Source: Pseudanabaena sp. UWO311 | Lineage (GTDB): Bacteria > Cyanobacteriota > Cyanobacteriia > Pseudanabaenales > Pseudanabaenaceae | Direction: 5' to 3' | Length of the DNA: 64,000 nt | Assembly: GCF_006937785.1 (NCBI RefSeq) | Contig: NZ_SJEE01000010.1 | Coordinates: 62,001-126,000, forward strand | In this document: positions 53,297-57,351 of the stretch, piece by piece | How the letters are laid out: every line of letters begins with the position of its first letter | Position numbering within the stretch: the stretch's first letter is position 1 | Program-made: the position numbers and the translations under genes | Notes under the pieces: model-generated | Database searches by the model: none | What the model saw: the letters and a program-made list of their open reading frames with translations, nothing else | Told to the model about the DNA's origin: nothing

Positions 53297-53764
53297 TCAA
53301 GCGATTAACCAGCAAGTGAGTGCCGCCGCGATCGCATCCGCAGCATCATCAGGACGTGGAATCGTATCGAGACTGAGTTCTCGTTTCACGGCTTCCTGTA
53401 CATCACTTTTGTCTGCATTACCGTGCCCCGTAAGCGCTTGCTTGATTTGCGGAGGTGAAAACTCAATCGGTTCGATATTGTGTTGGTTGAGAACTAATAC
53501 AATTACGCCCCTAGCCTGAGCCACATTAACTAAGTTTCCCATCCGATAAAAAAATAGCTTCTCCATTCCCACCACTTGTGGTTGAAACTGCTCAATTAGA
53601 GTATGCATATCCTCATAAATAGTCTTGAGGCGATCGCCGATTGGTGTGTGCTTGGGTGTGACGATTGTGCCAAATTCTAATAGTTTTGGTGTAGCAGGTT
53701 TTTCAACCTCAATTAAACCAAACCCAACTATTGCTAATCCTGGGTCAATTCCTAAAATTTTCAT
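53297..53764 (-). CDS. ruvC: Holliday junction resolvase RuvC
   Basis: Endonuclease that resolves Holliday junctions in recombination and repair. From the ATG at 53764 it starts [19 protein letters not shown] with the catalytic Asp, then [21 protein letters not shown] (Glu), [14 protein letters not shown] and the C-terminal [13 protein letters not shown] (two Asp). All four acidic residues are present. Upstream in-frame codons to 53788 are not conserved and are left out. Confidence 0.95.
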
Positions 53765-53835
53765 ACAGATAATCTTACCAGAATTCAAATCCTGATATAT
53801 CGCAATTGCTAGGCTTTGAACTCAAACTCGAACCA

Positions 53836-53882
53836 AAAAGATTTTTGAAAGTGTTGCAACGCAACACTTTCAAAAATCTTTT
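53836..53882. repeat. TTGAAAG-type hairpin, copy 3
   Basis: 22-nt perfect arms around AAC, core TTTTTGAAAGTGTTGC. Preceded by a degenerate form of the family leader (CTTTGAACTCAAACTCG, about 53813-53830). It lies upstream of ruvC. Confidence 0.85.
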
Positions 53883-53987
53883 GTCATAATTTCCGAGAAA
53901 ATTACGACAAAAGTATAGTAATAACAGCAATTTTCGATAAAAAAATAAACTTTGCCGTAATTTATAGCGTTTATTCAGTCTAGTGAA

Positions 53988-54034
53988 GTACGGGTTTGTT
54001 TCCCCGCCTTCGGCGGGGAAACAAACCTTTGTAC
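53988..54034. repeat. GTTTGTTTCCCC-type hairpin
   Basis: GGTTTGTTTCCCCGCC pairs exactly with GGCGGGGAAACAAACC around TTC (54009-54011), with outer GTAC/GTAC. It shares GGTTTGTTT-CCC with the hairpin at 35351-35411. Confidence 0.8.
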
Positions 54035-54250
54035 CTCGCTTGCTTGAAAAGCGCTATACTGTCCAACCCATCACAAGTAAAAACACAAAATCTATTGCAG
54101 GGCTTCTCGAATGTAACTATTTGAAAAAATTTTTTAAAGTGCAAAGAAATCTTTTTTTGATGGGTACAATTTACAAGGGCATGGGAATAGTCGATTCATT
54201 CAAATGAAGCATCTAATTGTTAAAAAACTTCCCCTCAAATTGGAGAACAA

Positions 54251-54607
54251 ATGAAAAAATATCTAGGATTTATAGCAGCAGCTTTTCTTTTAATTGAAGG
54301 CGTTGGTGCTGGGTCTGCGATCGCAGGAGGCAAATATGGTGCTGTCGCTACTGGACCTGGTGGGGCTTATGGTTGGGCTTATAACTTTGATAATGGAGAA
54401 GATGCAAAAGCTTATGCACTTTCTGCATGTGAGGGAAGTTGTACAGAAGTAGTTACATTTAGCAATGGTTGTGCTGCTGTCGCTAAAGGTGGTGGCTATT
54501 TTGGTTGGGCTGCTGCTGGTGACGAAGCAACTGCTAAAAACAATGCCCTTGGTTACTGTGGTGATAGTAGCTGCGCTATCCAAGTGTGGGCTTGTACTGA
54601 TCATTAG
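54251..54607 (+). CDS. Exported DUF4189 protein, copy A
   Basis: A 118-residue secreted protein. Residues 1-~26 are a signal peptide (KKYLGFIAAAFLLIEGVGAG). The mature part YGAVATGPGGAYGWAYNF, then NGCAAVAKGGGYFGWAA and a C-terminal CAIQVWACTDH, matches DUF4189, a small cysteine-rich fold of unknown function. Six cysteines could form disulfides in the periplasm. GGAG lies 7 nt before the ATG. It is a tandem paralogue of copy B with a nearly identical leader and signal-peptide DNA but a diverged mature region. Confidence 0.85.
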   Translation: MKKYLGFIAAAFLLIEGVGAGSAIAGGKYGAVATGPGGAYGWAYNFDNGEDAKAYALSACEGSCTEVVTFSNGCAAVAKGGGYFGWAAAGDEATAKNNALGYCGDSSCAIQVWACTDH

Positions 54608-54620
54608 TTTTTGACTAAGA

Positions 54621-54713
54621 CATGCCTCCAAAAATAACGTTGGCTCATTGACAAACTAGGATGTATATCCGCAAAACGAGGTCAAAAGAATTAAATCACC
54701 TCGTTTTTGAAGC
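54621..54713 (+). pseudogene. Decayed gyrB 5' fragment
   Basis: Bases 54661-54710 match gyrB 55501-55550 at 43 of 50 positions without gaps (ATGTATATC..., ending ATCACCTCGTTTTTGA). Weaker matches to the gyrB start (CATGCCT at 54621, GCTCATT-ACA-AACT at 54643-54656) suggest the fragment began at the gyrB start codon with later deletions. It probably arose when a unit of DUF4189 gene plus the start of gyrB was duplicated in tandem. Confidence 0.75.
54673..54707 (+). terminator. Terminator-like hairpin built from the gyrB fragment
   Basis: AAAACGAGGT pairs with ACCTCGTTTT around a 15-nt loop, followed by T and GA. The gyrB original (CAACGGGGCC opposite ACCTCGTTTT) does not pair like this; the differences at 54676, 54681 and 54684 create the stem. 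Confidence 0.55.
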
Positions 54714-54781
54714 GTTAGGATCTTTTGGATTTTAATTTTATTTAAGCTTGGCTAATTACCTAATCTCAAATTGGAGAACAA

Positions 54782-55138
54782 ATGAAAAAATATCTAGGAT
54801 TTATAGCAGCAGCTTTTCTTTTGATTGAAGGCGTTGGTGCTGGAGCTGCGTTTGCTGGAGACAAATATGGCGCAGTAGCGACTGGTGCTAATGGTGCTTA
54901 TGGCTATGCTTACAACTATGATAGTCGAGCAGAAGCAGAATATGCGGCGCTTGCCAATTGCGGTAGTAGCTGTGATGTCCAAGTTTGGTTTGCTAATGCT
55001 TGTGGTGCTGTCGCCAAAGGCGGCGGCTACTTAGGCTGGGCTTGGAATGTTGACAAAGACTTAGCTCAAGCCAATGCTCTAGCGAGTTGCGGTAATGGCA
55101 GTTGCGAGATCGCTGTTTGGGCTTGTACTGATCGCTAA
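54782..55138 (+). CDS. Exported DUF4189 protein, copy B
   Basis: A 118-residue paralogue of copy A with the same signal peptide except at its end. The mature part YGAVATGANGAYGYAYNYDS, CGSSCDVQVWFANACGAVAK and CEIAVWACTDR keeps the cysteine and tryptophan framework but differs at many positions. The untranslated leader CTCAAATTGGAGAACAA is identical in both. A strong terminator follows, separating it from gyrB. Function unknown; the duplication suggests dosage or divergence of an envelope role. Confidence 0.85.
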   Translation: MKKYLGFIAAAFLLIEGVGAGAAFAGDKYGAVATGANGAYGYAYNYDSRAEAEYAALANCGSSCDVQVWFANACGAVAKGGGYLGWAWNVDKDLAQANALASCGNGSCEIAVWACTDR

Positions 55139-55156
55139 AGTAAAGTCTTTAATTCC

Positions 55157-55197
55157 AAAAAAATAGAGGAGGTGCAAAGCACCTCCTCTATTTTTTT
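55157..55197 (+). terminator. Terminator after DUF4189 copy B
   Basis: AAAAAAATAGAGGAGGTGC pairs exactly with GCACCTCCTCTATTTTTTT around AAA, ending in a T-run. Confidence 0.9.
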
Positions 55198-55272
55198 GCT
55201 TTTTTGTATTTGCATAAGGCATGTAAATACTTAATCTGAGATGGTTTTGATATATCTGTAAGGCTTTTAAGC

Positions 55273-55311
55273 TATAATGGCAGAGTGTTTTTGAGTCTTT
55301 GCTCAAAACAC
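55273..55311 (+). promoter_or_regulatory. gyrB promoter -10 box and leader hairpin
   Basis: TATAAT at 55273-55278 is a good -10 box; a TTGATA at 55247-55252 is 20 bp away, too far for a normal -35. A stem GTGTTTTTGAG/CTCAAAACAC (55285-55311) would lie at the very 5' end of the mRNA. Confidence 0.45.
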
Positions 55312-55395
55312 ATCCTAAAAACACTATCAAGAGCGTCTACAAAGTTTTTCTTAACATCAAAGAATTTTCTTGAAAACCTCTTACAAACGACATAA

Positions 55396-57351
<1,956 letters not shown>

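Follow-up and report, generated by a model that had tools for sequence, protein, structure and literature searches.

The DNA analysed here, a stretch of 64,000 nucleotides from Pseudanabaena sp. UWO311 (the window), carries between two tandem DUF4189 genes a short piece that resembles part of the nearby gyrB and folds into a hairpin. The locus raises the question of how a piece of coding sequence came to form this hairpin and whether the hairpin serves as a transcription terminator between the two paralogues. The best explanation, to which about even chances are given, is that a patch of gyrB was copied in, that its stem was completed by a template switch and that the hairpin is mainly a by-product and not a strong terminator.

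Gene order and identity of the gyrB patch

The gene order in the genome of the window (G000) was ruvC on the reverse strand, duf1, the patch, duf2, a strong terminator-like hairpin and gyrB. Both genes flanking the patch, duf1 (54251-54607, forward strand) and duf2 (54782-55138, forward strand), matched PF13827 (DUF4189) with E-values of 3.1e-15 and 1.5e-19, which bears out the first-pass annotation in its placing of the fragment between two tandem DUF4189 genes. The hairpin after duf2 (55156-55198, forward strand) provided a local yardstick, and gyrB, the source of the patch, extended from its ATG at 55417 to 57351 on the forward strand. The first bases of duf1 and duf2, together with their ribosome-binding sites (54234-54310 and 54765-54841), were nearly identical within G000. 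Both starts had the variant ATTTATAGCAG, which was absent from the compared copies of G016 (duf1), G018 and G019, and this shared variant suggests a recent gene conversion between the paralogues. No paper was found in the search for literature linking DUF4189 with cyanobacteria.

Positions 54661-54710 and 55501-55550 were identical at 43 of 50 positions in an ungapped alignment with an offset of 840 bp, as had already been read directly off the sequence, and a repeat finder widened the match to 54651-54712 and 55491-55552 (84% of 62, ungapped). The patch of 54651-54712 lay on the forward strand, corresponded to approximately codons 26-45 of gyrB and showed its strongest match from 54659. BLAST of the patch over its own genome returned gyrB with an E-value of 3.4e-12 and no second gyrB-like copy besides gyrB itself. 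In a comparison of all 36 intergenic pieces against the 53 modelled genes of the window (E 1e-3), only the piece with the relic gave a match of more than 18 bases. The homology to gyrB was significant but came without gyrB function, covered only about 20 codons, and all six changes from gyrB fell at non-synonymous places. The fragment had been called dead, and judged by its sequence it is a dead piece of gyrB with real homology. It is a small relic of an ordinary kind, mildly interesting as a case of stem birth. A search of Rfam at a permissive threshold produced 16 matches, none over the patch and none at the gathering score of its own family, and a promoter scan showed no promoter at the patch. 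Among the matches listed in the literature on terminators, pseudogenes and exaptation, nothing was to the point as far as their available text goes.

In G016 (locus L033), at about -563 to -290 from the gyrB ATG, the patch was joined in frame to a truncated duf2, forming an open frame of 91 aa without a signal peptide, and this fusion is probably a broken gene. The patch could nevertheless be read as a small gene, with a 24-codon open frame in G000 that is fused to duf2 in G016 and that stays open in all three genomes carrying the patch. Set against this are an AGG that abuts the ATG and leaves no Shine-Dalgarno spacing, the six changes from gyrB at residue-changing places, the missing signal peptide of the fusion and the fact that one join in three is in frame by chance, and a small gene is very improbable here.

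The stem and its differences from gyrB

The patch formed a perfect 10-bp stem in which the left arm (54673-54682) paired with the right arm (54698-54707), both read on the forward strand, around a loop of 15 bases (54683-54697). Three substitutions, all in the left arm, completed AAAACGAGGT / ACCTCGTTTT: C to A at 54674, G to A at 54679 and C to T at 54682. The first-pass annotation was right that three differences make a 10-bp stem, but it had placed them at 54676, 54681 and 54684, and the true positions are two bases lower. The right arm and the T-run (54704-54708, forward strand) are unaltered gyrB codons (CTC GTT TTT GAA), so neither was newly made. The T-run had been described as following the stem; it is present, but it is native to gyrB and four of its five T are paired inside the stem. 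The statement that gyrB cannot form the stem holds for the perfect stem, as the longest unbroken Watson-Crick run in gyrB is 5 bp. It does not hold otherwise, as eight of the ten positions pair in the same register in gyrB of G000, G016, G018 and G019, seven as Watson-Crick pairs and one as G-U.

The G000 patch differed from the gyrB of G016 at six of 52 positions and from its own gyrB at seven, one of them a place where G000's own gyrB deviates. Five of the six changes, including the three stem-completing ones, were identical in all three carriers, while the sixth, at 54670, was C in G000 and G018 and T in G016. G or C was replaced by A or T in five of the six, again including the three that completed the stem. 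None of the 25 gyrB genes had the stem-completing changes in gyrB itself, and as these changes lie at non-synonymous gyrB places, they followed the release from coding constraint. The carriers differed mutually at three places in the 52 bases, two of them unpaired (in G016) and one turning a G-C pair into G-U (in G018), and the stem was not broken by any of them; G000 and G016 had it whole, and in G018 the one G-U kept the pairing. Comparison of the patch with its flank and with the four-fold sites of gyrB gave few differences, with G000 and G018 close and the G000/G016 block possibly exchanged; the gyrB four-fold rates for G019 were left out, its alignment being spoiled by an indel.

Distribution of the patch among relatives

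The search covered 58 genomes, 26 of them in the genus Pseudanabaena, and scored at most 14 first-look candidates per relative, so that a divergent copy at another place in a genome may have gone undetected. Three of the 26 genus genomes (G000, G016 and G018) had the patch together with its flank. The surroundings of gyrB were covered for 25 of the 26 (G015, which gave no match in the genome search, was left out), and in the other 22 of these the patch sequence matched only gyrB itself within the stretches around gyrB. DUF4189 genes preceded gyrB in 14 of the 25 genomes and formed a tandem pair in nine, with less than 1.4 kb of upstream sequence available for this count in G006, G012 and G014. 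The order was duf1-patch-duf2-gyrB in the three carriers, with the first part of duf2 lost in G016, and duf2-duf1-gyrB without the patch in G002, G020 and G021.

In the gyrB tree, G000 and G018 were sisters (100/100) and G016 grouped with G009 (88/84), which has no DUF4189 gene before gyrB. The carriers are thus not a clean clade by gyrB, and their distribution requires either a loss in G009 or an exchange of the block. Between ruvC and approximately position +300 of gyrB (53300-55720 of the window), G000 and G016 were mostly 90-99% alike in steps of 100 bases, with 80-93% over the rest of gyrB, and this similarity may reflect an exchange between lineages. The first 300 bases of gyrB were also alike in G009 and G019. 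In G018, ruvC was not found within 4.3 kb upstream of gyrB.

As a separate observation, gyrB was interrupted after approximately residue 441 in five of the 20 loci examined (G002, G006, G007, G017 and G022; loci L044, L048, L051, L043 and L041) by inserts that begin with CF(D/E)GDTLVAL. The insert of G022 matched the Pfam intein splicing domain with an E-value of 3.2e-12, with an HNH endonuclease below the cut-off, and the insert of G006 was short.

Origin of the patch

The first-pass annotation had proposed that a unit of a DUF4189 gene and the gyrB start was duplicated. The DUF4189 tree was built from 22 full-length rows (the truncated duf2 of G016 was left out) and had one long branch in G012. 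In this tree, duf1 of G000, G016 and G018 formed a clade (100/100) with genes of G002, G020 and G021, the last three without the relic, and duf2 of G000 and G018 grouped with that of G019 (100/99), likewise without it. Since duf1 and duf2 fall in separate clades that each reach relic-free genomes, the pair predates the patch and did not arise through it, and duplication of such a unit as the origin of the DUF4189 pair is rejected on the gene tree. The spacer between duf1 and the patch (54608-54650, forward strand) showed no detectable gyrB homology and was of no help to the proposal. It was taken as 54605-54659 with its G016 counterpart and compared, in 12 comparisons, with the gyrB upstream sequence of G000, G016 and G019 and with the duf1-gyrB stretch of G002, G020 and G021; no homology to gyrB upstream sequence was above chance, and 144-326 of 500 shuffles scored as high. 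A gyrB of the G002 type was not favoured as the source either, because the patch has the third bases of its own lineage where G002 differs (GGC, ACG, GGG and CTC codons).

A larger rearrangement, in which the DUF genes also traded places, may have left the patch as its scar, or the patch may be a short templated insertion. The rearrangement would have begun with a tandem duplication of duf2, duf1 and the gyrB start, after which each DUF gene would have lost one of its copies and the gyrB promoter would have disappeared. It would explain why G002, G020 and G021 have duf2-duf1-gyrB and the present genome duf1-relic-duf2-gyrB; beside the swapped order, it is favoured by ruvC adjoining the block in G000, G016, G002 and G021, although ruvC was not found in the upstream DNA covered for G018 and G020. 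However, it requires several deletions, the upstream sequence of gyrB leaves no trace beside the patch, and a direct short templated insertion takes fewer steps, which together make the scar a possible but doubtful account. It concerns only where the patch came from and is compatible with any reading of the hairpin.

Formation of the stem

The patch is homologous to gyrB, is shared by the three carriers and agrees with the gyrB of its own lineage. In the preferred explanation, approximately 55-60 bases of the 5' coding part of gyrB would have been copied between duf1 and duf2, and we infer for the timing and mode that this happened in the ancestor of the three Pseudanabaena genomes or within a block exchanged among them. 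With the coding constraint gone, the six positions would have changed relative to the gyrB of G016, and the imperfect inverted repeat of gyrB, with its eight of ten positions pairing, would have been the starting point for the stem. During replication, a strand would have changed templates, so that the left arm became a copy of the right arm's complement, most likely giving the perfect 10-bp stem in one event, after which the hairpin would have been mainly a mutational by-product.

The pattern of changes agrees with that of a quasipalindrome correction. An imperfect inverted repeat pre-exists in gyrB, the left arm contains all three changes that the carriers share within the arms, each of them complementary to the right arm, and the position that already paired as G-U was converted too. 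A template switch fits because all changes are in one arm and each is complementary to the other, the G-U position included. For E. coli, PMC7202029 documents template switches by which quasipalindromes become perfect, and PMC8794818 proposes such switches as a source of RNA stems; its section on new stems treats mammalian microRNA and rRNA genes and not bacteria. In the window, perfect stems of at least 10 bp with loops of 3-20 had 36 centres in 8,303 intergenic bases, against a mean of 0.26 and at most 2 in 50 random sequences, and coding sequence had six in 55,697 bases. Loops of 3 bases were found in 16 of the 36 intergenic stems; the patch stem is one of the 36 and has a longer loop than 30 of them. 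The patch may have been subject to the same process that makes or keeps such intergenic stems elsewhere in this genome.

The same stem could also have been completed by chance through independent neutral substitutions. The predominance of G or C to A or T, which extends to all three stem-completing changes, is the direction expected of drift, and the feature was singled out from 64 kb of examined sequence. Simulated independent substitutions under four spectra, on the other hand, gave a 10-bp stem in only 77, 143, 143 or 246 of 200,000 trials (approximately 0.04-0.12%), and a stem in the observed register in 14 to 118 of 200,000. Smaller simulations gave a 10-bp stem in 1 and 0 of 6,000 trials, and shuffles of the patch in 3 of 6,000. 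As the feature was chosen after the fact, these frequencies are a guide and not a strict probability. Nevertheless, they place the perfect stem beyond what drift readily gives; drift alone is an awkward account of it, and completion by chance is unlikely. The template switch has its own difficulties. Selection for a hairpin predicts an identical final stem, pressure from GC to AT also favours the left-arm changes, weak selection would likewise leave no stem-breaking difference among the carriers, and selection could also be what makes perfect intergenic stems abundant. Alignment of related strains, which had been suggested for tracing the duplication and the order of the stem-forming changes, spoke against the duplication through the gene tree. 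For the order, it gave no intermediate or sister copy with part of the three changes among the three carriers of the 26 genus genomes, which are too few for the question of one event.

With the source gyrB known, the patch gives a before-and-after view of a perfect stem appearing in bacterial intergenic DNA. If further carriers always show the three changes together, it would be a clear example from nature of a hairpin made by template switching.

Terminator properties of the hairpin

Hairpins were scored with a formula that we take to be of the d'Aubenton-Carafa type, with simple ORFs of at least 90 codons as gene models. The patch hairpin scored -29 and ranked 322 of the 1129 T-run hairpin positions scanned in the window, where the hairpin after duf2 scored +56. 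Its score was also -29 in G016 and was -42 in G018, and the hairpins after duf2 in the carriers and G019 ranged from +31 to +56. A total of 73 positions in the coding sequence of the window scored at least as high as the patch (48 on the same strand, 25 on the opposite). Such positions, overlaps counted, occurred at 15.2 per kb and strand between genes compared to 0.86 and 0.45 within genes. The relic hairpin was the best-scoring T-run hairpin less than 200 nt after duf1 in all three carriers.

For intrinsic ends of Synechococcus elongatus, the available part of PMC13289151 describes at least 4 U in the last 8 nt and a 30-nt fold below -10 kcal/mol near the end. With the end of the T-run taken as the 3' end, 6, 6 and 7 of 8 positions were U in G000, G016 and G018, and native gyrB also had 6. 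The minimum 30-nt fold stayed above -10 kcal/mol, with -7.6, -7.6 and -5.5 kcal/mol in G000, G016 and G018 and -5.3 in native gyrB, while the hairpin after duf2 reached -22.2, -19.6 and -15.1 in G000, G018 and G019. With its loop of 15, the patch is not a G+C-rich short-loop stem; no forward-strand terminator site with a loop of 3-8 was found at the patch, and the reverse strand had a weak site at 54714-54697 with six pairs. The whole stem had approximately -10.6 kcal/mol in G000 and -8.8 in G018. Compared to shuffles, the G000 fold had a z-score of -2.86 for a 53-nt piece (2 of 200 as low) and of -0.71 for an 81-nt piece.

The 23 DUF4189 genes before gyrB were compared by their best score within 200 nt. 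All 14 that adjoin gyrB scored positive, and all nine upstream members of tandem pairs scored negative, six of them without the relic. Four of these six had stems of -15 to -18 kcal/mol, which are stronger than that of the relic, with poorer T-runs. As all nine upstream genes are negative, tandem pairs seem as a rule to have weak termination between their genes, and the patch did not have to take on the role of a terminator.

The first-pass annotation had suggested that a coding piece was reshaped into a terminator, by which selection would have made a scrap of gyrB into a hairpin serving to end or protect the duf1 transcript. Drift would rarely give such a stem, the stem has stayed paired in all three carriers (through the G-U in G018) and is the top T-run hairpin within 200 nt after duf1 in each, its U content agrees with the published value, and scores like its own are many times denser between genes than within. 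Many cyanobacterial 3' ends, moreover, have no canonical features according to the available part of PMC13289151. Yet the scores of -29 and -42 fall far short of the +31 to +56 after duf2 and are equalled at 73 coding positions, the 30-nt folds of -7.6 and -5.5 lie close to the -5.3 of native gyrB and miss the cut of -10, and the negative scores of all nine upstream DUF4189 genes, most of them without a relic, make a strong terminator seem unneeded there. Of the suggested terminator, the density typical of intergenic hairpins stands, and the score, the rank, the fold and the G-U of G018 make it weak at best; reshaping by selection is unlikely.

By these scores, the relic hairpin does not appear to be a strong terminator, and its effect may be a slight pause of transcription or a minor RNA 3' end. 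It is probably a mutational by-product, a copying accident and not a purpose-built stop signal, although the patch falls among hairpins of the intergenic type because equal scores are far denser between genes. In a combined reading, one template switch would have made the gyrB scrap a hairpin with influence on the 3' end or the stability of the neighbouring transcript. A regulatory RNA element would then have arisen recently from coding sequence, with its source still present; this reading is quite improbable. If the hairpin does end transcripts, it would be a terminator made from coding sequence.

Comparison with known systems

The relic resembles intrinsic (Rho-independent) terminators in its stem, its A-rich 5' side, the T-run after it and its position after a gene. 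It differs from them in its long loop, its six-pair core, a short T-run that lies mostly inside the stem, its low scores and the G-U pair in G018. With bacterial gene remnants (pseudogene fragments) it shares the character of a short intergenic fragment, non-functional and derived from a neighbouring gene, but it is very short and stands alone, and no gyrB sequence was detected on its flanks. Compared to the template-switch mutations of quasipalindromes in E. coli (PMC7202029) and those proposed for RNA stems (PMC8794818), the present case likewise has an imperfect inverted repeat that became perfect by clustered changes in one arm, each reproducing the complement of the other arm, but it is read from a single fixed outcome, in a gene relic whose hairpin loop has 15 bases, and not from an observed event.
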